Position numbers and translations under genes: made by a program
Origin: Loxodes magnus
Lineage: Eukaryota > Ciliophora > Karyorelictea > Loxodida > Loxodidae
Assembly (NCBI GenBank): GCA_946699065.1
Contig: CAMPDV010001072.1
Location: 1-64,000, forward strand
Direction: 5' to 3'
Length of the DNA: 64,000 bases
Shown: in pieces, positions 505 to 63,490 of the stretch
Position numbering within the stretch: position 1 is the first letter of the stretch
How the letters are laid out: every line of letters begins with the position of its first letter
Notes under the pieces: model-generated
The model's database searches: none
Seen by the model: only the letters and a program-made list of their open reading frames with translations
What the model was told of the DNA's origin: nothing

Positions 505-1765
505 ATGAAACTTAAATCAGTTATGTAGAAATTATTCAAGCGAAAGAATAGTCTAAATAAAGAAGCTTCTAAAAAATAGTAAGAAATAGGCTAGTTTTGT
601 GAATAGCAAACATCAGGATTCTATAATTAAAATAATTGATATCCTCCTAATTTGAATTATCAAAATAAAGGGAAATGTGGAGCGTAAAAGGATAAATATA
701 GTTTCTATTGTTGTGAAAATTGCTAGTATATGTATACTTAGAGATCTGCTTTTAGTCTGAATAAAGTAATATGCGCTAGATTTATTCGCTTTAAAGCTTC
801 AAATAAGAAGACTTTTATGAACCTAAATATGCTACTTAAGTCAGAGATTAATAATATATCAAATTATAAAGACTCGACAAAGGTGGTTTCTCAGAAGTCT
901 GGAAAGGAATTTGAAACTAGAAAGAAGTGGCAATAAAAGAGATAAATAAATAAGAGTTAAATTAATAAGCTATGAATGAATTTATAAAGGAAATGGAAAA
1001 CATGTATCTCTTAAAGCACGAAAACATAGTAGAAATATATGGATACTGTTTTCATCCCTTTTTTTTAATACTTGAACTTGGCGAATAGTCTTTAAATGAT
1101 TTTTAAAAAATAATCAAATTACTTGAAAATAACGTTATCAAATTGCGCGTGACATTACCATTGGACTTTAATATTCTCATAGCTAGAATATTTTACATAG
1201 AGACTTAAAAAGCAAAAACATTATTTTAAATGAAACCAGAAAAGCTTTAATTGCGGATTTTGGACTATCCCATGTAAAAAGAGAATCCAAATCGATAAGT
1301 GATAAAAAGGAAAGTAGGAACTATAGCATGAATGGCTCCAGAATTGTTTGAATAAATCCCTAAGTATAGTAAAAAGTCAGACATTTATGGATTAGGAATG
1401 ATTTTTTGAGAGTTAGCTACAAGAAAACAACCATGGGAAAAAACTTTAAATGATGTGATCATTTATAAAGTTCAAAGAGGAGAAAGAGAAAAAATACCTG
1501 AAACATGTCCACAATTATTCGCAGAAATAATTAAAGGATGCTGAGATTAAGATCCAAATAAGAGACTTGAAATAGAAGAAATAATTTAAATATTAGAGAT
1601 TTTAAAATAAGAATCTGATTACTGCATATAAGAGTAAGAAAATGATTATTAAAATTTTAGCCCATCCAACAGTTAAGCAAAATATTCTAATAACTAAAAT
1701 AGCTAAATTTGATTTAATCAGAAAGAAAAGAGAGCAATAGTCAAGAATTTTTACAAGATTTTTGA
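505..1765 (+). pseudogene. TKL-type protein kinase, frameshifted copy 1
   Basis: Nearly identical to the intact kinase at 59069-60331. It encodes the same N-terminal Cys motif, AIK lysine, HRDLKSKN catalytic loop, DFG, WMAPE (W from UGA) and GCW motif. Against the intact copy it has four one-base differences in homopolymers: one T missing near 750-753, one T missing near 1100-1104, one A extra near 1304-1308 and one A missing near 1705-1707. Each shifts the frame. Start at 505 and the UGA at 1763 match the intact copy. It is either a young pseudogene or an intact gene with consensus errors; homopolymer placement makes the second quite possible. Confidence 0.75.
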
Positions 1766-2144
1766 TTGATAGCAAGATTACAACTTTTAAACTTTAAAAT
1801 AAAAGTTTTTACATTTTTTAATTGAATAAAAGACTTAAATTTAATTAAAAATTGCATATATTATTTATTGCATATTCTTTTTTATTAATAAAATATATTA
1901 ATTAGTATATTCTAAAGTAGAATTAAGTGCTTTGCTCATATATGATTTTTTAAATAAATTATTTTACTACTATTAAGAGACATTCCTCATTTCGTAATTA
2001 ATAATTAAATTAATTATCTTCTATATAATTAAGAACTTTAATAACTACAATTATTTTAAATTATGAACAATCTACCTAATTCTAAATAATTTGCTATTAT
2101 ACAAATAGAGATTTTAATAATAATACGATAAATTAAGTTTGCAA
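1766..2144. other. Intergenic, A+T-rich, no gene seen
   Basis: Spacer between convergent kinase and gag-like genes. Repeated at about 60332-60710. No RNA gene or coding frame recognised. Confidence 0.6.
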
Positions 2145-3009
2145 TTTTCGAGGATTTTCACCTCTTCATGCTGGATACCAGATTGCTCCAGTGTTAAAAA
2201 TAAAGTTTTAGATGTCTCTACTCCTCTCTCCTCCCATTACTCTTGTTATTTCCGAATCTAGCCTTATTTCTAATTAAATTTTCTCTTGTAAATGTATCCT
2301 TATTTATTTAAGTATAATCTTTCTCTTATTTGTCTCTACTACTTTTGTTTTTTCTTCCTCTACTGTGCTTGTATGGTTCTTTATTTATTCCAGTACTACG
2401 TCTTGAAATTTTGGAATTCCTTGCAGCATCTTCATAAGTGTTCTGTCGAATTGCAGTAGTAACATTTCTTCACTACTTTTTGGAGTTTAACCTTAGTCTT
2501 CCTATTGGTTTCTTCAATCATCATTGGATCTCCCCTTTGTTCATCTAATTTTTTTTCTAGTATTTCCAGTCTAATACTCATATCAGATTGTTTCTGAAGC
2601 TAATTTTAGGATTAGCTACTCTGGTCTTAAGATATGTTTCGGAAAGCGCTTAGTTCTCTTTCTTAGGACATAAGTCTGGATTCTATTCCTTCCGCTAGGT
2701 TGAGTTTTTCCATCAATTTCTCATTATCCTTTCTCAGTTTCCTAACCTCTTCCTGGAGGTTTAGTACCACTTTGATGAGCTGTTCCATGCTCATCTGGCC
2801 AGAAGGATTAAACTTTGAGACCTCCTGGTGCAGAGCAGACTTCATCTGCTTTCTGGGCTTCTCTTCTGAGCTTGTTTCTGTTCCTCTTCAGGTTGCTAGA
2901 ATTAAACAAAAGGTTAGGGTTAAGGGTAAGAAGACTATCCAAGATTGGATTCAGGTTTCCTCTCCAACTTTTTGGAGGTGGTGTAGAAACCTCTTTTGAA
3001 TCCTTCCAT
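2145..3009 (-). pseudogene. Gag-like coiled-coil/CCHC zinc-knuckle protein, frameshifted, copy 1
   Basis: Read on the minus strand from ATG 3009, the start MEGFKRGFYTTSKK resembles the intact relative at 6247 (MAEGLRKGF...). A heptad-rich segment follows (EQLIKVVLNLQEEVRKLRKD, about 2680-2780), then a CX2CX4HX4C zinc knuckle (CYYCNSTEHLWRCC, near 2420-2465; its Trp is UGA), then a basic Gln-rich tail with GYIYKRKF. The start frame and the coiled-coil frame differ by one base around 2850-2900, and the same shift is present in the copy at 60711-61575. The 3' end is uncertain because no UGA follows closely in frame. CCHC knuckles after a coiled coil are typical of retroelement gag or ORF1 proteins, but no polymerase is visible nearby, so a retroelement origin is inference. 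Confidence 0.6.
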
Positions 3010-4915
3010 TTTTTTAATATATAGAGATTTTAATTAAATCTAATTTAAGAATAATTTTTCCATGATTATACCATCTAACTCTCATTAATAGCTTAATTTT
3101 AATAAGTGCTAATTATATCTAATTATATCTAATTATTAATTTGTTATTAATATGTATAACTTAAATAGTTTAAATAAAGGTATTTATTACTATTTATTTT
3201 ATATTATTTTCCATATTTCTTATAAAGAAGTCTCATATCTTTTTTCTATCTTGCTATTAAATCTAATATATTTTATAATTATTTTCATAAGAGTTTTATT
3301 TATTTATTCGCAACATATAGCCAATATTCTTTTAAAAATTAGAATCATATAGAGTTAATTTAATACTCTATTTATAATTCATATCACATTATGAAGTTTA
3401 TTACAATTAATATTAAAATCAAATAGCTTCATACTATATACATTCTTTCTCAATTTAAATTACTTTTTTCATTTTTATTTTTCTAAATCTTTTTAAAGAC
3501 TAAAATGCTAGAGATATTAGTAGAATCCTTACAAAAGAGTATTTATCTTCCAATTTTTTTTATAGCTGATGAACAAACCCATTGCTTACAAAAAAGCATA
3601 TATATAGCTTTACAAGTATTTATTATCTTTTGTATAAATCAAATATAAGATACTCTATATAATCCAAATGCATAGAAATAGAAAAAACTTTACAAATTTC
3701 TCAATTTAATAAAATTTAATAATCTAATCTTTATGATTCCGTCAAAAGCATATTACAGCTCTTAAAAATTATTTTTTCAAATAAGTGTCATAATTTTTCT
3801 TCCTTTCCTCATTATTGCATAAAGACAACAAAAGAAGCAAGAATAAATTAATTTCTTTATTAGTCTTTTTCTACCTATTTACACAAAAGAAATGAAAGTT
3901 AAATGAAATTAAAAATTTACTCTAAGTATTTATGCTTTATGTAATAAAACTTTCTTTCTGATTCATATAATTTGTAACATTGCTACCCAATATAAAGTCA
4001 TATCCATACAAAATGTTTGAAAATTTAAATAGGTCCTGCATTTAAATAACTTTAAAGTTTATTATTTTCTTATTATATTTATAAATATTTCTTAATACTT
4101 TATTATCTAAAAAGCTCTAAATTTATTAAATTGTTATTTTTATTCTCTCCATTTAATAAATAATTTATGCATATCGTTTCTTAAATTTTATAATTTTAGT
4201 CTCCTCTTTTCTATCTTTTAATTCATACACATAATATTTTAGTAGAGTGATGAAAATTAATTAGAAAAAGTGTAAAAAATAAATACAAAAAATTGATTTT
4301 TTCATCTACATAAAAATTAAAAAATTTTAGATTTAATAATATCTTTAAAATCAATTGTAGATTAAATAATAGATAAAAATAAATCTAAGTAAAGCTATAA
4401 TAATAATCATCTAAATTGAGAGGGAAAAATAGAATTTCTTGAATAAAGAAAATAAATATTATTAATTACAGGGAAATTAATCTATGTTTTCAATTAAAAT
4501 TACCTTTTGTTACTAAATACCTTTAAGATATTTCTATATATCTCTAAAGCTAATTTATATTCAATATTTTAATAAGCTGGGCAATAATTGCATCTCTTTA
4601 TTTATGATAAATAATTTTTCATGGTGTCTCATAATTAGAAACTGCAAAAATAATTTAAGTTAGTTGTTTACTCAATAAAAGTTAATATTTTTTTAATAAA
4701 AGAAGGATATTTCTAAGAATATAATTAAATAAAACTGTAAAATTTCTATTTATTTGTATTTTATATTTTTAAGAATGATGTATATCTTAAACTTTGAATT
4801 AATTACTTAAAAATAATTAGTTGTTTTACGTAAATTAAGGATAAGTTAGATAATCAACTTTATCTTTTTTTTATATATTTCCTATTTAAATTAAAGTTAT
4901 TAAGGTATTATTAAA
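3010..4915. other. Gene-free A+T-rich stretch
   Basis: About 1.9 kb, repeated at 61576-63490. Contains a short direct repeat (taattatatc, twice, near 3110-3130). No conserved coding frame was recognised. The hydrophobic readings near 3152-3352 are low-complexity T-rich translation and I do not regard them as genes. Confidence 0.55.
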
Positions 4916-4988
4916 GGGGATCTAGCTCAAATGGTAGAGCGCTCGCTTAGCATGCGAGAGGCATTGGGATCGATACCCAAGTTCTCCA
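4916..4988 (+). tRNA. tRNA-Ala(AGC)
   Basis: Complete cloverleaf: D arm TAGCTCAAATGGTAGAGC, anticodon stem CTCGC/GCGAG around loop TTAGCAT (anticodon AGC), and T arm TTGGG-ATCGATA-CCCAA. The acceptor stem GGGGATC/GTTCTCC has a G-U and one U-U mismatch. Internal A and B boxes are recognisable (the B box has GGATCGATACC instead of GGTTCGANNCC), and a T5 run directly downstream could serve as the Pol III terminator. Identical copies lie at 63491 (+) and 32274-32346 (-), plus a truncated copy at 44784. Confidence 0.93.
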
Positions 4989-10024: not shown

Positions 10025-11045
10025 GCTTATGATTTTTAAGATTTCCTCAATATTTATTCTCTCACTTGGATCTTGTTTTCAACAATTAGAAATTAAATCT
10101 TTAAATGATTAGAGACAATCCTTAGGAATTTACTCTCTTTCTCCTTTTTAAATATGAAATTTTATTACTGCAGCTAAAGTTTATTCCCAAGAATTTTTCT
10201 AGAAGTTATTTCTCAGAAAATAATTCCTAGAGTATATATATCAGATTATTTACAATATTTTGGTTCTTGTAAATATCTCAGGAGCCATCCAACTTAATGC
10301 TTCTACTTATTATTGATCACACAAAGATTTAAATTCTCTCTTAACTCGTGAAAGACCGAAATCTGAAATCATAGCTCTATTATCATTGTTTAAAAGGATG
10401 TTCCTGCTTTTAAGTCTCTATGCAAAATTTTGTTAATGAATATATTATATCCCCTTTACAATATTGCATGTAGATTAGAATCTTACGTTTCAAGAAATTT
10501 ACTCTTTGCTTTATAAAAAATCAAGCAAAGAACATTTTCCGAGTTAAAGCATCAAACAGTAAGGTTTAAAACAAAATCCATAAAGCTTAATGATATTTTT
10601 ATGATTAATATTAGCTATTATCTTTTCTTCTTATAAAAACTAATTTTATGCTTCTTAGCTAAATTTAAATATACTACTTTTATGGCTACTTCTTTTTAGT
10701 TTCATTTTCTTATATAAACATTTCCAAATTCTCCTTAACCTGTTTGCTTTATTTTTTCAAAAATTTGATTAGTAATTTCCTGGTTATTTTGCTTTTATTA
10801 TTATTTTATGTCTTATGTTTTACTACTATTAGATATTTATTTATTGCTATGGCTGTTTATTTTTTTAATTTATTTAAGAGCATTTCAACTCGTAATCCTT
10901 TTAACAAATCCTGTAACAAAAAACGGATTTTATCTTTTGTGCTTCCATATTTGCCTCTGTCATCTTTGGATATTGGCATGTAATATTTTCTATTTTATAA
11001 TATTCTGATGTTTCTTCCTTGCAAAATTATCCCTTTTCTTATTTA
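10025..11045 (-). pseudogene. Decayed TKL-type protein kinase
   Basis: On the minus strand, pieces of the same kinase family appear in order but in different frames. They are the N-terminal motif KGQFCKEETSEYYK and CYRICQKDYE; a glycine loop GQGEFGNVY with WNQKEVAIK; NHKNIIKLYGFC; HRDLKAG; DFGLSRVKRE; LSWMAPEIF; IIFWEITSRK; and KQDPSERINIEEILK. At least four frame shifts separate them, so the gene is broken. The insertion-like changes are not all in homopolymers, so this looks like real decay rather than error. The N-terminal Cys motif shows it had the same architecture as the kinases at 28.4, 55.1 and 59.1 kb. Confidence 0.75.
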
Positions 11046-14615: not shown

Positions 14616-15714
14616 CCTTATTTAATAGTAAAAGTCTATTTCTATTTTTAATTAATAATTTATATAAATAAATATAGCTTTTTATTTAATTTCTCAATTT
14701 AATTATTAGTTACTTACTTAGAGCAAAACATTTATAAAAATTAAATTTAATAAATATAATAACTCTTATTGTTTACTTTTATTTAGAGAAAATAATAAAA
14801 TTAAAATAAGTTATAAAGATTAGGAAATTATTTAAAATTTAAGATTATTTAACTTCTATAAAAATGCTCTATTTGTATACAAAAAATCTATAATTATAAA
14901 TAATAAAGCATTTATAATATAAATAATTAATTTTAAAATACAAATAAATTTAGTTAAATTATTTAGCATATTTAACTAATATATTTTATATAAGATTCAT
15001 ATTAATATAAAAAGCATATTTATTCGAAAAATATTAAAAATTAGAAAATATTCCAAATTAAATTTTTGTAAAGAAATTTAATTTAATTAGCTCATAAATA
15101 TCTAAAATTTTATAGTAAAAAATAATTTAATAATTGATAAAAAAGTTAACCAAATATAGTAATTTATTATTAATTCTAAAATAATTAATTTTGTTTTAAT
15201 TTTGCATATATATCTTAAAAATATTTTATAATACTTTTAAATAAAAATTAATATTAAAAAAATTAATAAATCAAAGTGATTTATTTATCTAGATATTTAT
15301 TTTATAAATTTTATTCTAATTGTGCGATTATATATAATAAACTAAACATAATGAATTTAAAATTATTTATAAGTGAAAAATAAAAATATTTTTTATTTTA
15401 TTAATAAAAAGTTATAATAATTTGGTACTGAGATTTGAAAGAATAATTTTAAAAATAATCTTAGAAAATAATTGAAGCTAATAAAAATTAAATATCTTTA
15501 TATTTCGTAAAATCTACATATACTAGGTTAGTATATTTTAGCCTAAATTATTAATTATTTTTCCGAATTTCATGTGATATTAGCTTTGAGAAATTATAAA
15601 AGATTAATAGCTTTCTGATACTTACTTTGAATTTTAAATACCCTTTTGCTATTCAATCTACATTTAAAGATAGTTCCTTTAAGCCTATATCCTATATACT
15701 CTCTTTTAAGTATT
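14616..15714. other. A+T-rich spacer, nothing recognised
   Basis: Long runs of ttaat/aaaat words; the low-complexity sequence shows no coding signal or RNA fold. Confidence 0.5.
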
Positions 15715-16330
15715 TTGATTCTTTTAAAATTTCCTCTATACTTATTCTTTCGTTCAGATCTTGCTTCAACAATTAGAAATTAATTCAGAAAATTTTTAAA
15801 GACAATTCTTGGGAATTTCTTCTCTATCTTCCTTCAAAACACTTGCCATTATAAATGCATACACAGAATCTTCTCAAGGAACATTTTCTGAAGCAGTTTC
15901 TCAGAATATTATTCCTGATGTATAAATATCCGATTTATTGCTAAACCTAGGTTTTTATTTAATTTCTCTGGGGCCATTTAACTTAAAGTTCCTACTTGAT
16001 TTGAACTACTTGGAGATTCAGATTCTTCCTTAACTCGTGAAAGACCAAAATCTGAAATCATAGCTCTATTTAATTATTCAAAATTATGTTCTTGCTCATT
16101 AAGTCTCTATGCTAAATGCTTTTACTATTAAGATATTAAACACCTTTATATGTATCCCAGGCAATTTAGAATTTTTATATCAAGAAATGTTTTTGTTACT
16201 TTATAAAAAGTCAAATAAAGAACATTTTACAAGTTCAAGTAGTAGACTATATGAATTAAGGCAGAACGCATAAATTTTTATTATATTTTCATGATTTATC
16301 TCTGCCAAAATTTTTGTTCTTTTTTATTTA
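15715..16330 (-). pseudogene. 5'-truncated, decayed TKL-type kinase
   Basis: Minus-strand kinase fragments in shifting frames: LAEINHENIIKIYAFCLN, LFDFLQSNKNISW, HRDLMSKNIILN, SDFGLSRVKEES, VGTLSQMAPEK (the usual WMAPE Trp replaced by Gln), FWETAS and ELISNCW. The ATP-binding lobe and the N-terminal Cys motif are missing: homology stops at ~16320, exactly where the repeated block at 16310-17394 begins. That suggests the duplicated block replaced or interrupted the 5' end. The gene is certainly non-functional as it stands. Confidence 0.7.
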
Positions 16331-17643: not shown

Positions 17644-20600
17644 TCAGCATTTTTTATCTATTCCAAACTATCCTTCATACTAGTCCTCATGCTCTTGAGT
17701 ATAAACTTGAATTTCTCTTGTTTGTCTTTCATTTTAAATACTCTCATCATAAGCTGAAGGAACAACTAAAGACTCTTTCTAAAATTTTAATAGGCTAATA
17801 TAGTTACTCTGATTCTTTAACCTTTATTCTTTATTTTACAGCTTTAAGAGGTTTAGGTTTGACGAAAGTGGAGAAATTCTTTCTGGATAATCATCATATA
17901 ATTCCTCGAGAGAAAATGATTAAACGATCTATGAAATTTTTATTCTTTACTTGAGTTTTTTCCTAGCTTTTTATATTGAAAATACTTTTCTAGTTTAAGT
18001 CTTTTATATAGGAATAAACTAATATCTCTCTTTTCATTTATTTAAATTTTTTACTAAGGTATTTAATTCACCTTCTTTTTATTTCTTTTTTAAAGCATTC
18101 TTTATTCTACTTTTCAACTTCTCTATGAAACCCATTAATTTTCCTAAAAAATTCATTAACCCAAAAATTGATCCTAAGATAGTCGCAACCAAGTTAACTC
18201 AGGAAGTTTTTAGAATTTATCGAGTCATTAATGAGCTTTCACTTGGCTTAAAGTTTATTCTTGCATATATATCGGAAGTAAACTACATTTCAGAACTTGA
18301 ATACTAAGTTCCTTTACTTATGTATCCTGTACTCATTACATGATATCCTGTTTCTCCATTATAATTTAAATCGTCCTGATTGTTTGTTTCATAAGCAGAA
18401 GATATTGTTAGAACTTAAAGTATGGTTGGTTTTGGTCCTCTGAATACCATTTCTTTATCAGGATTAATCGTAATATTTATGCTTGAAACTTCTCCAGGAA
18501 TAGAGGAAGTTGTAGTAACATTAAACTAAATAGATGAAGCAAAAGATTTATCTTCCTTTAGGCTGAATAAGATGTAAGAAGGTCCATTTATTTCACACTT
18601 CTTGCATGTTTTTTTTACATAGCAGTTTCCATTCACCATTTAGCATTGAAACTAAGTCCCTTCCATATCATCACTAACTGATGTTATTCCACTTCACTCG
18701 AAACTGATGTCTTTATGGCATTCTGAGTATTCTTATAGTTTTTTAATTTAGCATTGTCCCGCTATAAGATTCGAATTTTACTATAAATTATAGATTTGAC
18801 TTAATAGTAGGGTAACTTTCTTTTAAAATAAGATAGGGAATGAGAGCTTTACTTTCTACAATATTATCAAGAGTAAAACTTATTAAGTTATTTAATACAA
18901 ATGCAATTGTTAACACACCAAAGATAGATGAAAAGAGTCCGCCTATAGAAGTTTTTTTTAGTTTCATAAACTACCCAAGAACATAGTTGTGACTTTTATC
19001 ATACATGTCAAGCACTTTTATTTTTTTTCGAGACTCTTTCTTGATTAAAAATAAAAGAATAAGAAAGCCAATTATTAGGAAAAGTCCTATTATAATATAC
19101 TAACTGTAATGCTAAACTTCCTCAGCATTGTCTTAAAAATTTTAAGGCTATTTTGACTATTCCTCTTTTTATTTCTATTATCTTATAGGAAGAGTAGATC
19201 CAACAGGACATTCTAAATAGTTTGGACATTCCAAGCAAAGATCAGTTCCTTCTTTATCATTATAGAATCCCTTTGCACAAGGTAAACACTATCTTTCAGA
19301 AGAAGCTCCTAGAATAGGCTACTCCATACCTTTAGGACATTTGTTGCATTTATTACTTTATTTCGTATAAGTACCACGAGGACAAAGTTAACATTCTCCA
19401 TTTTCATCTTCATAAGTTCCATAGCTATAAGGCCATCCACATAAAGTTAAGTTAGGACTACAGTGTCGAGGAATATCGTAAATTCAAAATTAGTTTATGG
19501 ACTTTTTGGTTACACTGAAACCTCCTTAGATAAAAACTCCACCAAAGTACATTAGCATTCTCTTATAATAAATCATGGTATGACCCCATACTTAATTCAT
19601 TTAATCACTAGCTTCGATAGCTTTAGTATCCTTTTTTTATTCTAAATCTATTAGTATCATATCATTATAGGGAAATAATCCTCAGCTCAGTCCCTCCGTA
19701 AATGGCCATAAAATTATCAACTGCACTAAATGCAGTTATTCCTCGATTCTCTAATACTACTCAATCTTCTCGAAATTGGAATGTTTAAAGATCGTAAGAA
19801 TAAATATATGAATTATCGGAATCCTGTAAATTTGTGCCTAGTGAAATGTATAGAACGTTTTCATATTCATAAAGGTTACAGTGTATAAGTTTTCTAGGAT
19901 AATCTTTATCTTTGTTGAGAAGTAGTCATACACTGGATCCTAAGTCTAACTATCATAGTTAGTTGGTTTCTCCTGAGATGGTTTATCCACCAAACATGTA
20001 GAAATGTTTTCCAACCATTGTACCACAGGCAAATTTTCTTGGAGTTGGAGGACTTTTTTGAGAGACTTATTCTCACGTTCTACTAATTGTATTGAACTTG
20101 TACATATCATTTAACATTTCTGAATTTCCTTAACCCCCCCATATTGTCAAAAAATTTCCATTCTGAGCAGCAATATGCCCGAATCTTTCCTGCGGCAAGG
20201 ATCCAAATACCTGAACTTACTACCACATCCAATTTTCTAAGTCTAGCTTCCAAATACTGTTAAGTAACTATTATTCTGAGTTTATACCTCCAAACACATA
20301 GGCACTTCCAGAGATTACATTCATAGTGTGATAGTGCACAGGTTCGGGAAAATCGATACTATCCTAGATTATTTCTCACTCTAATTTTGGTTTTTACAAG
20401 TCTAAACAAATCACATCGTTTTTAATACCCGTCTAAGATCTGCCTCCTATCATCCAAATTTTTTCATCACTACATGCTGTGTAAAAGGAATCTCTTTTGA
20501 AATAATCTCAATTTTAAACATCTAATAGCTTTCAGATAAAATTGTCGTGATTTGAGTAGTCAAGTTCTAACAATTCTCCAACATTATCTAATAAATTATC

Positions 20601-21377
20601 AGATAATTCTGAAACTCTGTATATCCTTTTATTCTTTTTATCTAAGCAACTCGAAGCAAAGTATTATGATTAAGATGAATTATTTTAATCCATTTTTCTT
20701 CAAACTAAGCTTGCTAAATTTAAGATATACATGTTTTCATCTTTTACTGCTCCCGAGCCTACGACAATCAGTTCGTTATCATCGTAAAAAATTTGAGCTT
20801 TATTTTATTCAGGAGGAGAATCTCCTGTTGTATTCAATTCTGTTCACTTATTAAGTTAAGAATTATAAACTCAAACGTCATTTGCTTATCCATCATATGT
20901 TCTTCCTCCAAAGATATATAGAAGGTAGCTTCCATCTTCCTGCTATACTAGATCTGAAGTATGTCCTGTTCTTGGAAGTGGCTTTTTACCTTAAGTAATA
21001 ATTTTTTTTCATTCATAATTTTGAATAGAGAAGGATCATAAATCGTTATGAATGCCATATGCTGATTATCCTCCAAATATAATCATAATTTCTTAATTTT
21101 CTACTCATTAAGAAGTGCCTGAGAATCTAGCTTCAGGATTTACTTAGCTTGATACTGGTATTAAATATCAATAATTTTATGCTAAATCAAGCCATCAAAC
21201 ATCATTGAAAATTACGTCTTTATCTCCCTTTCCCATAGAAATTAAAGCAAAATTTTGCTTCTAACTATATACTCCGTAAAATAAATAGCGTTTTGTCGGA
21301 GGAGTAGAACTCTCTGGGAATTATCTTCATTAAGCTTAAGAAAGTGAAAGCAAGAGACAAATAATAAGGATAGGCAT
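17644..21377 (-). CDS. Secreted-side kelch / Cys-rich multi-pass membrane protein
   Basis: Reads from ATG 21377 to UGA 17646-17644 as about 1243 residues once two extra single bases are allowed for (A7 run at ~19631-19637 and near 18771-18782). The order is a signal peptide (MPILIICLLLSLSQAQ); at least six kelch-type repeats (NDVWWLDL, IFGGRTYDGQANDVWVYN, AYVFGGINSEQQLLNSIWKL, FYMFGGQTISGETNQLWQL); a GCC2/ephrin-like Cys-rich part (CQLCPRGTYTKQSNKCNKCP, CLECPNYLECP); TM1 (IIIGLFLIIGFLILLFLI); a second hydrophobic stretch (SIGGLFSSIFGVLTIAFVL); a Cys-rich ectodomain; a third (VNLVATILGSIFGLMNFLG); and a charged tail ending DKKC. About twenty Trp are UGA against roughly seven UGG. Such kelch-Cys-TM proteins are common in ciliates; the ligand is unknown. 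The two shifts may be errors or early decay. Confidence 0.82.
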
Positions 21378-28399: not shown

Positions 28400-29642
28400 A
28401 GTCCTTAGCTCCTTTAGAAAAAAAAGTACAGTAATTCAAATCAAATATAGGAAGATTTTGTGGTATGCCCACAAAAGGGTTTTATAAATGTAGAGAATAT
28501 AATTAATCTTAGCCACAAAGTTGGGAAGGAAACTGTGGAGGCATTAAAGACAAATGACGTTTTTATTGCTGTGAAAATTGTAAATAAAATTATGAGTAGA
28601 GATAAAATTAAATAAGCCATTAATAGTTCATGTCTTTCCCTTAACCAATTGCTTAAAATTAATAAAGCAGCTCATATCAAATAAAATCTAATCCTAAAAA
28701 CGTTAAAATATTAGATCGTCAAAGTTTTACTTAAAAAGAGAAAATAGGATCTGGAGCATTTGGGGCTGTGTTCAAAGGAGAATGGAATCAAAAAGAGGTA
28801 GCAATAAAATAATTAACAGGATAAACTTAAGTTAAGAAGCAAAAGAAGAATTTCTATAAGAAATGCAAATAATGTATGAATTAAATCATAAAAATGTAGT
28901 AAAGCTTTATGGAATTTGCCTTACTCCTTTCTCATTGATAATTAAGCTGGGATAATGTTCTCTATATGACTTTTTACAAAGTAACGAATAGATTACTCGA
29001 GAAGCAAGATATTAAATTTCTTATGATATTGCTTTAGGTATTTAATATATTCATAGTAAAAATATCCTGCATAGAGATCTAAAGAGCTAAAATATTATTA
29101 TGAACAAATGAAACAGAGCTATTATTTGCGACTTTGGTCTATCACGTGTTAAGAGAGAATCTAAATCTTTAAGTGATAAAAGATAAGTAGGAACATTAAA
29201 TTGAATGGCTCCTGAGATATTTGAGAAAAAGCCAAGATATAGCAAATAGTCAGATATATTCTCACTAGGAACGATATTCTGAGAGATAGCTTCTAGAAAA
29301 GTTCCTTGGGATTAAAAATCAGATAATTAAATAATAAAATAAATTTTATAAGGAGAAAGAGAATAAATTCCTTAGGATTGTCCATAATAATTTTCTGATA
29401 TTATTTCTAGATGTTGGTTATAATAGCCAAATTGGAGAATAAGTATTGAGGAAATTATTAATAAGTTATAAGAGGGAATCTAATAATAAATTGAAATTAA
29501 AGGTTAGGAAGAGTAATAATTTAATTATAATTGCAGTTAACTTTAATTATCAAATAATCAATTCTTGAATATTTAGATACCTGGAGAGTAAAATTCGGGA
29601 AGATAAAGGTTATTATCAAGTACTCCAGCTTAGTTGAATTGA
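28400..29642 (+). pseudogene. TKL-type protein kinase with one frame shift and no clear start
   Basis: Same architecture as the other kinases. The N-terminal Cys motif is present (GRFCGMPTKGFY, NCGGIKDKWRFYCCENC, about 28453-28592). Then come glycine loop IGSGAFGAVFKGEW, WNQKEVAIK, EFLQEMQIMYELNHKNVVKL, HRDLKSQN, DFGLSRVKRE, GTLNWMAPEIF (W = UGA), FWEIASRKVPW and SRCWLQQP, and the frame ends at UGA 29640. Between AIK and EFLQEM (about 28820-28850) the frame shifts by one base. No in-frame ATG is visible before the Cys motif, unlike the intact paralogues, which begin MKLK. It could be a pseudogene, or an expressed gene with a sequencing slip and an unseen first exon. Confidence 0.75.
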
Positions 29643-36724: not shown

Positions 36725-39700
36725 TAATCAAAAATTAACTCTAGTCAAATAAATCTTTAAATTTAAATTTTATATATAAAGAAAGTGTTAACACATAATG
36801 AAGATTTTTCTCTTTTTTTTCATTTTCAAACTTATCTTCAAAACTTTGTTCCTAATCATATAATGCTTCATCTATTTAGATTTATTTTCTTTCTTTTTCC
36901 TTAAAGATATTACTTTGAGAGCTACTCTGTAGAACTTCTTTTTATAAAGTTTACCAAGTAAGTGAAAGGGATTTTTCAAATTTTTTAGAAGTAGTCTCTT
37001 CCTCTATTTATTTAGGATTTTCAAGTTTTTTATTATTTTTTTGAATAGAAACACTTCTGGTAAATTATTTTTGATATAAAAACTAACTGCACTCATTATT
37101 CTTAACATTGTGCTAGAGATAAAGCTTAAGCATAAAATTATTTTTATCAAATAAAAAATTTTCACAAGATAGCTATTTATCAGCTAGGTACTTTCTAAAA
37201 TTATAGTAAGTTAGCTAGTTTTATTAGTATTAATAAAGCAAATTCTCTTTATTTTTGCACTAAAATGTCCATCTGAACAAATAAGTTTCGTCTAGCTCAA
37301 AGATAGTTATCATAATTTTATATTTCCTTTACAGTTTATAGCCTATTATACTGCTTATGATACAACTAACTATAAAAGAACTTATGAAGATTCTTTCGTT
37401 TTCAGTATATTACTCCAAATATACTCTAAATATCTATACTATTGCATGGTTTATATTAAAGGAGAGAAGAATCAATATTCAATAGTTTAGCTTTATATAG
37501 CAGCAAGGCTGAGTTTTGTAAGTGTAATAGAATAAAATAATCAAAGTTAGTAAATAAAAGATAGCATGGATCTTCTTGCTTTATTATTCGATAAGCAAAT
37601 TCATTACTATCAATAACATCTGAAACAATCTATATACCACTAGGTAGCTTTTCTTGTATTTTATTTTCATTAAGTATCCATAAAGTTCTTGTCACATCAG
37701 AACTGTTTTTGTTCCAAGAAGTGTATAAAGAATGAAGCAGATAGAACATAAAATCACGAAAAAAAGATGAGTTCCTTATCAGCATTTCCAATTACAATCT
37801 TTATAGTGAAAAGATTCTTAAAATTCTATAGTTCCACTTTTATTGCTATCTACTCCATCAACACAAATAAATAAATCCATAAAATTTCAATTTAAAGGAA
37901 GAAGGAAGCTTTATGTCAAAAGGGGACCAAAGTAGTATGAAAAGCTTCCTATTAACTACAAAAGCGTATATTTTGAAAATTCTAACTTCACTAAAATGGA
38001 TAGAAAGCTTAAAAGTCAAATAATAGCAATAGCACAAGCTACTAATTTATTAGAGTATTATTTATTATAAGATTATTCGAATATATTTACAAAATCTAAC
38101 TTAGCACAGCTTGTGGCAAATTTTGCAATATAACCGTAGCCAGAAATGTCAGGTCCTATTGAAATTATCTAGAAAAAGTACAAAATTAAATGTGACATAT
38201 AAATGAAGTCTCAAGTTGACATTACAAATACTTTTTGAAGTTTTTCAATTTTGTAATTTCTTTAAAATTTAATTTCTTATAGATAAAGGATTGTAAGCAG
38301 AAATAATAAAGCAAGTAACACTACAATTTTTACGATAAATTCTTTCTTAAATTTTTATTTATCTCTTTCTTTAAATGGGCAAGGTTAATATCATCTGTCT
38401 TTGAAAATTCCAGTGCTTCCATCTCCTCACATAAAAGGAGTTTTATAATCAAAAATAACATCACAAAAAATACAATAAGATCCAATTTATTAAAGAGATC
38501 AGGTTCCTTATTCATCTTTTCTATAATTAAAAATAGCTCAAGGCAAAAATTCTCTATCATTAGTGGAATCTTTAATACTTACTTTCCCAGTAGCTCCTAT
38601 AAATTTAACTCTTCTTATTTCTTTTATGATATTGTCTTAATTAGTGTAATTTTCCCCTGATTCGATCAAATTTTTTAAAGCATGTGCTCCTAATAAAACA
38701 CTATCGAATTCATTAAAGATGTAGTTAGATACTGTAGAAGTTTTAAAATATTCTTGTATTTAATCTTTTATAGACTATCCAAACTCACCTATTTCTCCAA
38801 TAAAATCAAATTAAATTGCTCCTTTTAAGACAGTTTAAATTTTATAGATTTCTTCTCCTTTTTCTAAAAAATGTTAATTTAACCAGCCAAAGGCTAATAT
38901 CTCAAAGTCTCCTTCCCTTGCTCCTAAGTCATATAAATATCTTAGTAAGTATTTAACATAATCATCATAAACACCTATTAGTACCACTCTTGTTTTCTTA
39001 TATATCTCTTACACCACTAATTTTCAGGTATCGTTTTGACTTTATGAACTGATGTAATTAATTTATCTTAGTTAGTTTACTATATTTATATTAAAATGAT
39101 CAGCTTCTTTTTAAAAATAGTTATAAATACCCTTAGATCATGTATTGTCTTGATAGATAAATCCTATGTTTTTCCATCCTTATATTTGACATATTCATGT
39201 TATCAAAATTGCTAGGTAAGAATCAGAACAAATTGTACGAACGAAAAATGTAAATTTTTTCATATCAGATAAATCAGGAGCTGTGTCTCCTCCGGAAATG
39301 CAGGTTATTGTAAGATTTTATTGCTCAAAAAAGTGGTAGAGATCAATAGAATTAGCGCTTGTTACAGGCATAAAATGAATCAGACCATATTAGTCCTTTT
39401 TTTGGCTTCATTCTTAATATACATAATTATAATCAAATCATTCTGCACCTGTATACATACTAGTTGAGTTGAACTTATAATAAGGTAAAATATTACTAAT
39501 GCTATTTAAATAGTAAATGCCATATAATCTTCCTTAATAGTAAGCAGAAATCCATTAAACTTCAACTCCGTCGTGATTTTTCTCATCCAAAACCATGCTA
39601 ACTGGAATTTAAATAAGGCTATTATCAGGTGGCTTCGAAGTTCCATCAGGTCATAATATCATCTCACTATAATCAATTTAAGAAATACTAGCGGTTCCAA

Positions 39701-52173: not shown

Positions 52174-52246
52174 GCAGACATGGTCTAGTGGCTATGACAG
52201 CTGCTTCACACTCAATAGGTCGTGGGTTAGATCTCCGCTGTCTGTA
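52174..52246 (+). pseudogene. tRNA-Val-like pseudogene
   Basis: Plus-strand relative of the tRNA-Val(CAC)-like gene at 35525-35597: the same acceptor GCAGACA/TGTCTGT and D arm. The anticodon stem is broken (GCTGC against TCAAT around TTCACAC) and the T arm is damaged (GTGGGTTAGATCTCCGC). Short stretches of both flanks are also shared in inverted orientation. Unlikely to be functional. Confidence 0.82.
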
Positions 52247-53345: not shown

Positions 53346-53529
53346 TAATGGTTAACCTAATAATGATAAAGCCATGTTATCTTATTTTGTATGCAACTTT
53401 AATTTTATAAGAGTATCTTCATAATAGAAAATTAGATTATGTTATTTCTCATATCATTTCATTTAATATAAAAAATATTTCGTTTCTTTAGTTAAAACTA
53501 GTCATTAATAAGTTTAAACTATGAATAAT

Positions 53530-53760
53530 TGAAAAGATGGTAAGAGCTGAGAGGTATCTTCGTGACTAAACATCCTGGTTTTATGGCAAGGAGCAAGTTT
53601 CTTTCCTGTCGCTGAGAAAGTCCCTGGTCAGAGTAATTTTCTGAAGGGAACGCTGTCTTTGAGATTATCAGCTCTTGGTAGGGGCTTGAAGCCCGGCTGC
53701 TCATAGCTATGTGCTCCCTAGCAGCTGTGTCTGGAGCACAACAGGATATCCCCGTTTTTC
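53530..53760 (+). ncRNA. Candidate structured non-coding RNA (RNase P/MRP-like at best)
   Basis: A sharply bounded G+C-rich block in A+T-rich spacer with strong base-pairing potential. AAGAGCTGA (about 53541) pairs perfectly with TCAGCTCTT (about 53668). TGTGCTCC and GGAGCACA (about 53709-53740) form an 8-bp stem. GGGCTT-GAAGCCC and GGATATCC are further short palindromic pieces. The sequence GCTGAGAAAGTCCCTGGTC resembles the CR-I core of RNase P/MRP RNA (GAAAGUCC followed by CC/GG), and a T5 run at ~53754 could be a Pol III terminator. I could not place CR-IV and CR-V or a convincing P4 partner, so the family is a guess; strand is also uncertain. No SRP, U1-U6 or U3 signature fits. Confidence 0.4.
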
Positions 53761-53819
53761 CATAAAAAGAGAGCGTCGGGTTGTGTAATCGTAAAGGAGA
53801 TTCCGATCCAAAAAACTTT

Positions 53820-55000
53820 TAGTTGAAATTAATTAATTAATTAATTTAAATTGTCTAAATAATTTAATTTCGTTTTCTTAGGCTTCATAATTTTTAACAA
53901 GATTAATAAAATTTTAATATAAGAGAATATGGAAACAGATAGTCATTTATTATTTTATCTCACATTACTGAGAATTTAATTTTTTTGGATTATTTATTGC
54001 TATATTTTAATTTTAGCTTTCCAGAATAATGTCTCTTTCTGATTCCAAAAAAATAACTTAAAAGTCGGTTATTAATATTTTTAATACCTTAAATTTAATA
54101 TAAATTCAATGACCTATTTTTTGTGACTTACAGTTTATGAGCTTCGAGCTTCCATAATTTTTATTTTAGTTAATGAAAAAGCAGAAAGAAACTGCTTAAT
54201 TAGATAAAATTTCAAACATAATTTAATTAAAAAACTTTTGAGTCTCAATTATCATTAAATTTATTTTAATGCCTCATTTTAAAGAAAGTTCAGAAATAAA
54301 GTGTTCCTAAGATTTCTAAGATAAATAGTTAAAAAATCAATAAAAGAGAATTAAATTTAAATTAAATATATCAGTTCATTCAATAAATATGGGCTAAAAT
54401 AATTAAAATAAGCTATGATAAGCTTTATAGCAATGATTCAATTAAATGAATCTTTCAACTTATTCTTTTGATTATACTTTTGAAGATCTCTTCTATTACT
54501 TTGGTTAAATTATATTTAATAGATATCTTTTTATAGTGATAAAATTATAATATTTGAATCATATTCAACTATTGTGATTTAAGTAATTGCTCTATGAGTT
54601 TGCAATCCGTTCTAATGAAACAAAAACTTAGAAATGAAAATTTTCAATTTATATGAATCTTTTATACTAAAGAAGATAATATATACTTCCTTACTTTAGA
54701 TTTAACTTTATCTTTTATTTCAAACATTAATATATTGGGTATAGAGATATACTTTATAGTAATAAAAATATTTAAGAGGCTCTCACTTGCTAATTGTCTA
54801 ACATTTGAAAGGTAAAAAGCATTTTAAAATAATAAATTAATATTATAACTAATAATTACTTTATAAAATATTTTATATATTTAGAGCCAAGCTACCAGAA
54901 CATTTTTATTAAGTTAAAAGTATTAAAAATATAATTGTATAACTTTTAATAAATATAACTATTAACTTAAAACAAGCTAGTAAAGTAGAAAAACTAAATA
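53820..55000. other. A+T-rich spacer, nothing recognised
   Basis: Starts with an AT-tandem patch (attaattaattaatt at 53829). No coding signal. Homology to the kinase upstream region begins near 54998. Confidence 0.5.
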
Positions 55001-55101: not shown

Positions 55102-56391
55102 ATGAAACTTAAAATAGCCATGAAGAAATTACTCAAGCGAAAGAATAGTCTAAATAAAGAAGCTTCTAAAAAATAGTAAGAAATAGGCTAGTTTTGTGAA
55201 TAGCAAACATCAGGATTCTATAATTAAACTAATTGATATCCTCCTAATTTGAATTATCAAAATAAAGGGAAATGTGGAAAGTAAAAGGATAAATATAGTT
55301 TCTATTGTTGTGAAAATTGCTAGTATATGTATACTTAGAGATCTGCTTTTTAGTCTGAATAAAGTAATATGCTTTAGATTTATTCGCTTTAAAGCTTCAA
55401 ATAAGAAGACTTTTAAAATGAAGCTTAGTCTATTTTAGTAAGTTCTAATGAATTTACTAAATAGTATTCCATTGGCAAAGGAGGATTTGCAAGAGTTTGG
55501 AAAGGATAATGAAACTAGAAAGAAGTGGCGATAAAAGAGATAAATAAATAAGAGCTAGATAAATAAGCTTAAAAAGATTTTATGTAGGAAATATAAAACA
55601 TGTATCTCTTAAAGCACGAAAACATAGTAGAAATATATGGATACTGCCTTGATCCCTTTTGTATAATACTTGAACTTGGTGAATAGTCTTTATATGATTT
55701 TTTAAAAAATAATCAAATTTCCTAGTATAGAATATTCTAGATTGCTTAAGATATAGCTTAAGGGCTTTAATATTCTCATAGCTAGAATATTTTACATAGA
55801 GACTTAAAAAGCAAAAACATTATTTTAAATGAAACCAGAAAAGCTTTAATTGCGGATTTTGGACTATCCCATGTAAAAAGAGAATCCAAATCGATAAGTG
55901 ATAAAAGGAAAGTAGGAACTATAGCATGAATGGCTCCAGAATTGTTTGAATAAATCCCTAAGTATAGTAAAAAGTCAGACATTTATGGATTAGGTATGAT
56001 TTTTTGAGAGTTAGCTACAAGAAAACAACCATGGGAAAAAACTTTAAATGATGTGATCGTTTATAAAGTTCAAAGGGGAGAAAGAGAAAATATACCTGAA
56101 ACATGTCCACAATTATTTGCAGAAATAATTAAAGGATGCTGAGATTAAGATCCAAATAAGAGATTTGAAATAGAAGAAATAATTTAAATATTAGAGATTT
56201 TAAAATAAGAACCTGATATATTAGTATAAGAATTAATAGAAAAAGAGGCAATAGAAGAATAACTAAAGTCCAAAGATTATTTGAGATAAATTCAAATTTC
56301 TTAAGATATAGAAAGGGATATATAAATCTAAAAAAATATTGCAGCAAATATGATTAGTATAGTCTAACCACATTTTTCACATTTTAGATGA
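55102..56391 (+). CDS. TKL-type protein kinase, intact, with N-terminal Cys motif
   Basis: A 429-residue protein from ATG 55102 to UGA 56389, unbroken. An N-terminal Cys motif has C32, then SGFY, then C58, C69, C70 and C73 (KDKYSFYCCENC), probably metal-binding. The kinase domain follows: glycine loop IGKGGFARV (125-132), K145 in AIK, HRDLKSKN (H232, D234), DFG (252-254), GTIAWMAPE (W276 is UGA), FWELATRKQPW and GCWDQDPNKR. HRDLKSKN and GTxxWMAPE are characteristic of tyrosine-kinase-like Ser/Thr kinases. All catalytic residues are present. The N terminus and the C-lobe are nearly identical to the copies at 505 and 59069, but the N-lobe and the last ~40 residues (EPDILVQELIEKEAIEEQ) differ, a mosaic pattern. 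Upstream ~105 bases are shared with the paralogues and may hold the promoter. Confidence 0.88.
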
Positions 56392-59068: not shown

Positions 59069-60331
59069 ATGAAACTTAAATCAGTTATGTAGAAATTATT
59101 CAAGCGAAATAATAGTCTAAATAAAGAAGCTTCTAAAAAATAGTAAGAAATAGGCTAGTTTTGTGAATAGCAAACATCAGGATTCTATAATTAAACTAAT
59201 TGATATCCTCCTAATTTGAATTATCAAAATAAAGGGAAATGTGGAAAGTAAAAGGATAAATATAGTTTCTATTGTTGTGAAAATTGCTAGTATATGTATA
59301 CTTAGAGATCTGCTTTTTAGTCTGAATAAAGTAATATGCGTTAGATTTATTCGCTTTAAAGCTTCAAATAAGAAGACTTTTATGAACCTAAATATGCTAC
59401 TTAAGTCAGAGATTAATAATATATCAAATTATAAAGACTCGACAAAGGTGGTTTCTCAGAAGTCTGGAAAGGAATTTGAAACTAGAAAGAAGTGGCAATA
59501 AAAGAGATAAATAAATAAGAGTTAAATTAATAAGCTATGAATGAATTTATAAAGGAAATGGAAAACATGTATCTCTTAAGGCACGAAAACATAGTAGAAA
59601 TATATGGATACTGTTTTCATCCCTTTTTTTTAATACTTGAACTTGGCGAATAGTCTTTAAATGATTTTTTAAAAAATAATCAAATTACTTGAAAATAACG
59701 TTATCAAATTGCGCGTGACATTACCCTTGGACTTTAATATTCTCATAGCTAGAATATTTTACATAGAGACTTAAAAAGCAAAAACATTATTTTAAATGAA
59801 ACCAGAAAAGCTTTAATTGCGGATTTTGGACTATCCCATGTAAAAAGAGAATCCAAATCGATAAGTGATAAAAGGAAAGTAGGAACTATAGCATGAATGG
59901 CTCCAGAATTGTTTGAATAAATCCCTAAGTATAGTAAAAAGTCAGACATTTATGGATTAGGAATGATTTTTTGAGAGTTAGCTACAAGAAAACAACCATG
60001 GGAAAAAACTTTAAATGATGTGATCATTTATAAAGTTCAAAGGGGAGAAAGAGAAAATATACCTGAAACATGTCCACAATTATTTGCAGAAATAATTAAA
60101 GGATGCTGAGATTAAGATCCAAATAAGAGACTTGAAATAGAAGAAATAATTTAAATATTAGAGATTTTAAAATAAGAATCTGATTACTACATATAAGAGT
60201 AAGAAAATGATTATTAAAATTTTAGCCCATCCAACAGTTAAGCAAAATATTCTAATAACTAAAATAGCTAAAATTTGATTTAATCAGAAAGAAAAGAGAG
60301 CAATAGTCAAGAATTTTTACAAGATTTTTGA
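59069..60331 (+). CDS. TKL-type protein kinase, intact copy 3
   Basis: A 420-residue protein from ATG 59069 to UGA 60329, unbroken. It has the same N-terminal Cys motif as the 55102 gene (FC...SGFY...CG...FYCCENC). The kinase domain has LDKGGFSEVWKG (the first glycine of the loop is Asp), AIK, HRDLKSKN with H at 232, DFGLSHVK, GTIAWMAPE (W = UGA), FWELATRKQPW and GCWDQDPNKR. The tail (SDYYIQEQENDYQ, then Ser/Asn/Gln-rich) differs from that of the 55102 paralogue. It is the intact version of the frameshifted gene at 505. Substrates are unknown; by family a Ser/Thr kinase of MAPKKK/Raf-like type. Confidence 0.87.
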
Positions 60332-60710
60332 TTGATAGCAAGATTACAACTTTTAAACTTTAAAATAAAAGTTTTTACATTTTTTAATTTGAATAAAAGA
60401 CTTAAATTTAATTAAAAAATGCATATATTATTTATTGCATATTCTTTTTTATTAATAAAATATATTAATTAGTTTATTCTAAAGCAGAATTAAGTGCTTT
60501 GCTCATATATGATTTTTTAAATAAATTATTTTACTACTATTAAGAGACATTCCTCATTTCGTAATTAATAATTAAATTAATTATCTCTATATAATTAAGA
60601 ACTTTAATAACTACAATTATTTTAAATTATGAACAATCTACCTAATTCTAAATAATTTGCTATTATACAAATAGAGATTTTAATAATAATACGATAAATT
60701 AAGTTTGCAA

Positions 60711-61575
60711 TTTTCGAGGATTTTCACCTCTTCATGCTGGATACCAGATTGCTCCAGTGTTAAAAATAAAGTTTTAGATGTCTCTACTCCTCTCTCCTCC
60801 CATTACTCTTGTCATTTCCGGATCTAGCCTTATTTCTAATTAAATTTTCTCTTGTAAATGTATCCTTATTTATTTAAGTATAATCTTTCTCTTATTTGTC
60901 TCTACTACTTTTGTTTTTTCTTCCTCTACTGTGCTTGTATGGTTCTTTATTTATTCCAGTACTACGTCTTGAAATTTTGGAATTCCTTGCAGCGTCTTCA
61001 TAAGTGTTCTGTCGAACTGCAGTAGTAACATTTCTTCACTACTTTTTGGAGTTTAACCTTAGTCTTCCTATTGGTTTCTTCAATCATCATTGGATCTCCC
61101 CTTTGTTCATCTAATTTTTTTTCTAGTATTTCCAGTCTAATACTCATATCAGATTGTTTCTGAAGCTAATTTTAGGATTAGCTACTCTGGTCTTAAGATA
61201 TGTTTCGGAAAGCGCTTAGTTCTCTTTCTTAGGACATAAGTCTGGATTCTATTCCTTCCGCTAGGTTGAGTTTTTCCATCAATTTCTCATTATCCTTTCT
61301 CAGTTTCCTAACCTCTTCCTGGAGGTTTAGTACCACTTTGATGAGCTGTTCCATGCTCATCTGGCCAGAAGGATTAAACTTTGAGACCTCCTGGTGCAGA
61401 GCAGACTTCATCTGCTTTCTGGGCTTCTCTTCTGAGCTTGTTTCTGTTCCTCTTCAGGTTGCTAGAATTAAACAAAAGGTTAGGGTTAAGGGTAAGAAGA
61501 CTATCCAAGATTGGATTCAGGTTTCCTCTCCAACTTTTTGGAGGTGGTGTAGAAACCTCTTTTGAATCCTTCCAT
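60711..61575 (-). pseudogene. Gag-like coiled-coil/CCHC protein, frameshifted, copy 2
   Basis: Copy of the 2145-3009 gene inside the duplicated segment: start MEGFKRGFYTTSKK at 61575, coiled-coil frame from MKSALHQEV at 61411, CCHC knuckle near 60985-61030 (CYYCSSTEHLWRCC in this copy, with UGA Trp). It shares the one-base shift between start and coiled coil seen in copy 1, so that shift predates the duplication or marks a true feature such as a missed short intron or programmed shift. Confidence 0.6.
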
Positions 61576-63490
61576 TTTTTTAATATATAGAGATTTTAAT
61601 TAAATCTAATTTAAGAATAATTTTTCCATGATTATACCATCTAACTCTCATTAATAGCTTAATTTTAATAAGTGCTAATTATATCTAATTATATCTAATT
61701 ATTAATTTGTTATTAATATGTATAACTTAAATAGTTTAAATAAAGGTATTTATTACTATTTATTTTATATTATTTTCCATATTTCTTATAAAGAAGTCTC
61801 ATATCTTTTTTCTATCTTGCTATTAAATCTAATATATTTTATAATTATTTTAATAAGAGTTTTATTTATTTATTCGCAACATATAGCCAATATTCTTTTA
61901 AAAATTAGAATCATATAGAGTTAATTTAATACTCTATTTATAATTCATACCTAAAATATATCACATTATTAAGTTTATTACAATTAATATTAAAATCAAA
62001 TAACTTCATACTATATACATTCTTTCTCAATTTAAATTACTTTTTTCATTTTTATTTTTCTAAATCTTTTTAAAGACTAAAATGCTAGAGATATTAGTAG
62101 AATCCTTACAAAAGAGTATTTATCTTCCAATTTTTTTTATAGCTGATGAACAAACCCATTGCTTACAAAAAAGCATATATATAGCTTTACAAGTATTTAT
62201 TATCTTTTGTATAAATCAAATATAAGATACTCTATATAATCCAAATGCATAGAAATAGAAAAAACTTTACAAATTTCTCAATTTAATAAAATTTAATAAT
62301 CTAATCTTTATGATTCCGTCAAAAGCATATTACAGCTCTTAAAAATTATTTTTTAAATAAGTGTCATAATTTTTTTTCCTTTCCTCATTATTGCATAAAG
62401 ACAACAAAAGAAGCAAGAATAAATTAATTTCTTTATTAGTCTTTTTCTACCTATTTACACAAAAGAAATGAAAGTTAAATGAAATTAAAAATTTACTCTA
62501 AGTATTTATGCTTTATGTAATAAAATTTTCTTTCTGATTCATATAATTTGTAACATTGCTACCTAATATAAAGTCATATCCATACAAAATGTTTGAAAAT
62601 TTAAATAGGTCCTGTATTTAAATAACTTTAAAGTTTATTATTTTCTTATTATATTTATAAATATTTCTTAATATTTTATTATCTAAAAAGCTCTAAATTT
62701 ATTAAATTGTTATTTTTATTCTCTCCATTTAATAAATAATTTATGCATATCGTATCTTAAATTTTATATTTTTAGTCTCCTCTTTTCTAGCTTTTAATTC
62801 ATACACCTAATATTTTAGTAGAGTGATGGAAATAATTAGAAAAAGTGTAAAAAATAAATACAAAAAATTGATTTTTTTCATCTACATAAAAATTAAAAAA
62901 TTTTAGATTTAATAATATCTTTAAATCAATTGTAGATTAAATAATAGATAAAAATAAATATAAGTAAAGCTATAATAATAATCATCTAAATTGAGAGGGA
63001 AAAATAGAATTTCTTGAATAAAGAAAATAAATATTATTAATTACAGGGAAATTAATCTATGTTTTCAATTAAAATTACCTTTTGTTACTAAATACCTTTA
63101 AGATATTTCTATATATCTCTAAAGCTAATTTATATTCAATATTTTAATAAGCTGGGCAATAATTAAATCTCTTTATTTATGATAAATAATTTTTCATGAT
63201 GTCTCATAATTAGAAACTGCAAAAATAATTTAAGTTAGTTGTTTACTCAATAAAAGTTAATATTTTTTTAATAAAAGAAGGATATTTCTAAGAATATAAT
63301 TAAATAAAACTGTAAAATTTCTATTTATTTGTATTTTATATTTTTAAGAATGATGTATATCTTAAACTTTGAATTAATTACTTAAAAATAATTATTTGTT
63401 TTACGTAAATTAAGGATAAGTTAGATAATCAACTTTATCTTTTTTTTATATATTTCCTATTTAAATTAAAGTTATTAAGGTATTATTAAA
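61576..63490. other. Gene-free, copy of 3010-4915
   Basis: Same spacer as in the left copy, with a few one-base indels and an extra cctaaaatat insertion near 61951. Nothing recognised. Confidence 0.55.

Follow-up and report, generated by a model that had tools for sequence, protein, structure and literature searches.

Glutamine at UAA and UAG and tryptophan or termination at UGA in the Loxodes magnus genome: a 64-kb window and histone genes

For the karyorelict Loxodes magnus the nuclear code is stated to be NCBI table 27 (PMC11441545), under which UAA and UAG encode glutamine and UGA serves both as tryptophan and as the stop. According to that paper, the choice of stop depends on the proximity of the poly-A tail, with UGA and UAA depleted ahead of the stop; the macronuclear assembly comprises 706 Mbp, the median 3'-UTR is 41 nt, and the intron mode is 17 nt. 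Condylostoma magnum, with table 28, also uses all three former stop codons as sense codons, and there UAA, UAG, and UGA are all able to stop translation (PMC4967479). The share of UGA among codons is given as 0.042% in C. magnum and 0.120% in Parduczia in the same source. A tRNA-Trp(CCA) with a 4-bp anticodon stem is described for Blastocrithidia, C. magnum, and Amoebophrya, and also occurs in Loxodes according to PMC13092985 and PMC12005148, citing Swart and others; genes from Blastocrithidia and C. magnum raised UGA readthrough in reporters (PMC13092985).

The 64,000-nucleotide stretch analysed here (the window) can be read in the same way. With a probability of about 95%, this is nuclear DNA of L. 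magnus that follows table 27, UAA and UAG being glutamine and UGA being tryptophan internally and the only stop terminally. This is a correct rediscovery of the karyorelict code, already in print in 2016 and 2022–2024. The first-pass annotation of the sequence had proposed exactly these readings, with UGA also terminating, and they are borne out by histone columns, scores against PF00125 and PF07714, masked alignment columns, and histone ends. Its attribution to a karyorelict also held, since it fits the table stated for L. magnus, while its other precedent, Condylostoma, holds for the sense use of all three codons and not for termination, as all three can stop there and only UGA does so here. 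UAA and UAG as glutamine, UGA as tryptophan and stop, and a 17-nt intron (predicted here) are common to the window and to L. magnus as described in PMC11441545, and no difference from that description was found. Comparison of sequences shows the amino-acid meanings of the three codons and the presence of UGA at the recognisable histone ends. In the most likely mechanism, translation would be the default outcome at former stop codons, UAA and UAG would be read by putative glutamine tRNAs with UUA and CUA anticodons, and, in a step drawn from the literature, eRF1 would prevail at a UGA only where the 3' end of the mRNA and its poly-A tail are near. The window is a clear example of a code without a dedicated stop, in which the codon by itself need not decide termination and its place in the mRNA can matter as well. 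Such a code defeats standard gene prediction. With the standard code (table 1), seven stop-to-stop reading frames of at least 100 amino acids are present in the 64 kb, one of which shares its frame with a modelled gene.

The genes of the window considered here, and the codons of interest within them, are as follows.

17644..21377, minus strand: gene for a membrane protein with kelch repeats, containing UAA, UAG, and UGA in frame (gene-finder model)
17644-17646, minus strand: modelled last codon of the kelch gene, UGA
21195..21197, minus strand: UGA at the tryptophan of a kelch NDVW, followed by UGG (NDVWWLDL)
21036..21038, minus strand: UGA at the equivalent tryptophan of another kelch repeat (NDLW)
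20871..20873, minus strand: UGA at the equivalent tryptophan of a third kelch repeat (NDVW)
20250-20252, minus strand: UGG at the equivalent tryptophan of a further kelch repeat (NSIW)
55327..56391, plus strand: protein kinase gene (Pfam), with UGA at four columns where 11 of 12 homologue residues are tryptophan
59294..60331, plus strand: second, closely similar kinase copy (Pfam), with UGA at the matching WMAPE and FWEL sites
675..1712, plus strand: third kinase copy (Pfam), its motifs at 1196 and 1329 lying in different frames
28465..29642, plus strand: divergent kinase recognised by its motifs, with HRDLKSQN (UAA)
28724-28740, plus strand: predicted 17-nt GT..AG intron of the divergent kinase
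39974 down to at least 37700, minus strand: ANF-receptor-type gene (Pfam; model)

The gene finder was trained on the window itself, and its seeds were segments surrounding the quoted motifs, including one within the kelch gene; it placed the ends of that gene exactly at 17644 and 21377, the limits given in the first-pass annotation. The unspliced kelch frame, with UAA, UAG, and UGA read as Q, Q, and W, matches the Pfam kelch family PF24681 with an E-value of 1.2e-99. Two introns of 28 and 19 nt placed in this gene by a script are doubtful, because the frame ahead of each looks protein-like when inspected by hand, the likelier explanation being single-base shifts or different introns. In the 3' half of the gene (17644-19860) the frame changes about twice, for which unmodelled introns, assembly indels, and decay are candidate causes. 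Among the kinases, the copy at 675..1712 is either frame-shifted or mis-modelled, and the divergent kinase scored 22.3 bits against Pfam, under the cut-off, in a frame that left most of the gene out. For the receptor, a stop modelled at the UGA at 38391-38393 (KDRW) was rejected, and this UGA is probably tryptophan because the frame continues into hydrophobic segments.

The first-pass annotation rested its case on five motifs, which were located in the window as follows.

21206, minus strand: NDVWWLDL, with UGA and then UGG
1329, 29202, 55927, and 59894, plus strand: WMAPE with UGA, in four kinases
10291, minus strand: WMAPE with UGG, in a kinase fragment
1404, 56002, and 59969, plus strand: FWEL with UGA, in three kinases
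39152, minus strand: QDNTWSKG with UGA
29070, plus strand: HRDLKSQN with UAA, in one of four kinases

All five strings are thus present with the codons given for them, although two, HRDLKSQN and QDNTWSKG, do not demand the proposed reading. Only NDVWWLDL lies inside the span 17644-21377 to which they had been assigned, the kinase and receptor motifs being located elsewhere in the window. WMAPE, FWEL, and the kelch NDVW are, from comparison of the kinase columns with PDB homologues and of the kelch ND-W repeats with each other, tryptophan positions of their families, and provide good evidence for UGA as tryptophan. HRDLKSQN was rejected as evidence for UAA as glutamine, the column being AAA (lysine) in the other three kinases and P or R in the aligned PDB kinases, and QDNTWSKG was rejected for UGA, which there faces G and Y in the mGluR chains. 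Raw counts of in-frame former stops were also set aside, because similar numbers occur in other frames of the same genes.

The homologue comparison proposed in the first-pass annotation was carried out by masking the former stops of the kinase, kelch, and receptor genes as X, searching PDB, and tabulating the aligned residues, one block of a single residue being left out. For UGA the expected enrichment was found: tryptophan accounts for 20 of the 29 homologue residues at UGA columns, against a background of 2.5% of 1,914 residues, and for 12 of 41 at the UGG columns used for comparison. By family, the fractions are 11/12 for the kinase, 9/12 for the kelch protein, and 0/5 for the receptor, where the mGluR residues opposite UGA are D, D, G, Y, and D. 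One kelch UGA column faces D, F, and F, the blocks added later bringing W and other residues; with eight further kelch domains added, UGA faces W in 21/33, UAA faces Q in 10/109, and UAG faces Q in 4/55. Of the ten letters (X included) substituted for UGA in the kinase at 55327-56391 and scored against PF07714, W was best with 207.6 bits, followed by Y with 195.4 and the rest with at most 192.8, while against PF00069 W and Y were inseparable (181.9 and 182.0 bits, respectively). Outside the window, UGA occupies the NF-YC tryptophan in two genes, as seen for L089 when aligned to NF-YC chains of plants and for L088 as judged by eye. In a small sample of four coding stretches (1,964 codons, including two closely similar kinases), UGA makes up 39 of the 54 tryptophan codons and 1.99% of all codons, far above its shares in C. 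magnum, where it is rare, and in Parduczia as given in PMC4967479; the use of UGA as the majority tryptophan codon is possibly new.

A candidate decoder of these UGA codons was sought in the whole genome (705,730,643 bases in 7,843 contigs). The pattern for tRNA-Trp(CCA) gave 147 matches, compared with 41 for a reversed control pattern, and 100 places were listed. Among these listed matches, 48 belong to a tandem array on contig C67 and 41 are clustered on contig C148. The first array, at C67:482323-491201 (L037-L060), has a spacing of about 187 bp and at least 48 places, and the second, at C148:155464-166726 (L064-L066), a spacing of about 241 bp and at least 41 places. The matched string is identical in all 89 of these listed places and puts C at position 43. 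Of the copies in which position 27 was read, all those on C67 (about 32 of 48) carry A there and all those on C148 (three of 41) carry T, so that the 27-43 pair is A.C or U.C, respectively, in these copies and the anticodon stem is left with four pairs. We infer the same broken pair in the other approximately 54 copies of the two arrays. The basis of the stem reading is manual and scripted numbering of the tRNA positions, together with ARAGORN calls, and a raw count of 332 tRNA-Trp copies tallies those in overlapping loci several times. A ViennaRNA fold of the tRNA-Trp gave neither a cloverleaf nor a signal over shuffled sequences (z -0.54). Two further genes, at C110:362514 and C110:470107 (L061, L062), were called as tRNA-Trp(CCA) with the full 5-bp anticodon stem, and in the other nine listed places ARAGORN found no tRNA in any of the seven scanned. 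The first-pass annotation had suggested a search for tryptophan tRNAs, and for the CCA anticodon this revealed abundant genes, mostly with the 4-bp stem.

The broken top pair of the anticodon stem is shared with the 4-bp tRNA-Trp(CCA) of Blastocrithidia, C. magnum, and Amoebophrya as presented in PMC13092985 and PMC12005148, and the U.C of the three C148 copies read consists of the same bases as reported for Amoebophrya and C. magnum in PMC12005148. Relative to what these papers give for the three organisms, the differences are the A.C of the C67 copies read, the many tandem copies, and the presence of two 5-bp copies; the amplification of 4-bp genes alongside 5-bp ones is possibly new, and the contrast in copy number between them offers a route to test ambiguous decoding of UGA. 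It is unlikely that UGA is instead read by a cognate tRNA-Trp(UCA), given the abundance of the 4-bp tRNA-Trp(CCA) in this genome and the readthrough that such a tRNA promotes in the reporters of PMC13092985.

As regards UAA and UAG, the window genes by themselves do not settle the reading: UAA faces Q in 7/86 aligned residues and UAG in 1/42, at a background of 3.1%, so that the glutamine enrichment anticipated in the first-pass annotation is not clear there and emerges from the H3 and H2A columns. Because the window genes show little conservation of glutamine, histones of the same genome were used. The genome gave 31 matches to PF00125, 28 of which were read, and ten genes, five of H3 and five of H2A, were compared with PDB reference chains at the glutamine columns. 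UAA or UAG occurs at least once in nine of the 13 columns with glutamine in the reference, and each of the 45 cells in those nine is UAA (17), UAG (13), CAA (12), or CAG (3); the other four columns are devoid of both UAR and CAR. Thirty of the 45 UAA and UAG codons in the ten genes face a reference glutamine, and the remaining 15 are spread over seven columns, in all of which one sister copy or more has CAA or CAG. When one H3 gene was scored against PF00125 under ten codes, glutamine for both codons was best with 160.1 bits, the next being UAA as E with UAG as Q (155.4 bits).

The histones also inform on termination. In all 18 recognisable histone ends (five H3, six H2B, and seven H2A, from the 28 genes read), the first former stop past the C-terminus is UGA and never UAA or UAG, in agreement with the first-pass claim of UGA as a terminator and pointing to it as the sole stop; this sample is small, drawn from one protein family, and based on the genome sequence. 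The ends of H3 and of one H2A type were placed by alignment to PDB chains, those of H2B and of two other H2A genes by eye. Conservation does not fix the ends of ten other histone-family genes (six H3 variants, two NF-YC-like genes, and two others), and in two of the six H3 variants (L073 and L076), with unanchored ends, UAA and not UGA is the first former stop beyond RGEK. In the tail of H2B, at a position that is not conserved, UGA in L084 corresponds to CGC (arginine) in its sister L082.

UGA after every recognisable histone end would equally be expected from the ordinary ciliate code (table 6), which assigns UAA and UAG to glutamine and keeps UGA purely as a stop, so that genes with internal UGA would be pseudogenes. 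The apparently frame-shifted kinase copy fits this as well, and a single-cell transcriptome study from 2019 (PMC6935857) gives UAA and UAG as glutamine and UGA as stop for Loxodes. Nevertheless, table 6 is very improbable here: UGA falls at conserved tryptophan columns of the kinase and kelch genes (20/29 residues with the receptor included) and at the NF-YC tryptophan, and provides 39/54 tryptophan codons in the four stretches; the PF07714 scores and the masked columns likewise show UGA in use as a sense codon. The Condylostoma code (table 28), in which each of the three codons may be sense or stop, predicts identical amino-acid readings and would accommodate the two unanchored, ambiguous H3-variant ends with UAA, yet with 0/18 recognisable ends at UAA or UAG, and a predicted intron whose 17 nt equals the published Loxodes mode, it has scarcely any probability. 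Table 27, with UGA as the sole stop, is the code that these data support.

A few other features of the window and the genome are worth mentioning. A block duplicated at 675-3074 and 59294-61640 comprises a kinase on the plus strand followed by an unknown protein on the minus strand, which, tested in the first copy (675-3074), has no Pfam match. Decayed kinase fragments are located on the minus strand at 10291 and 15562-16037; the latter has UGA at kinase tryptophan positions in one frame and UAA at the tryptophan of WMAPE in another, and the one frame submitted to Pfam matched nothing. In contrast to the sequence around it, the short stretch 53523-53827 has coding scores in each of the six frames. 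An Rfam tRNA match at 52174-52246, without a counterpart in ARAGORN, was considered as a suppressor tRNA and rejected, as its loop reads CAC (valine) by hand; it looks like a decayed tRNA-Val. tRNA-Ala(AGC) genes at 4916, 32274, and 63491 have an equal Rfam score of 53.2 bits and are possibly copies of one repeat. The best genome-wide tRNA matches scanned (L001-L030) are tRNA-Lys(TTT), some of them in regular arrays with spacings of about 527 and 1753 bp, and tRNA-Ala(TGC) is also present in eight of the 26 loci scanned.
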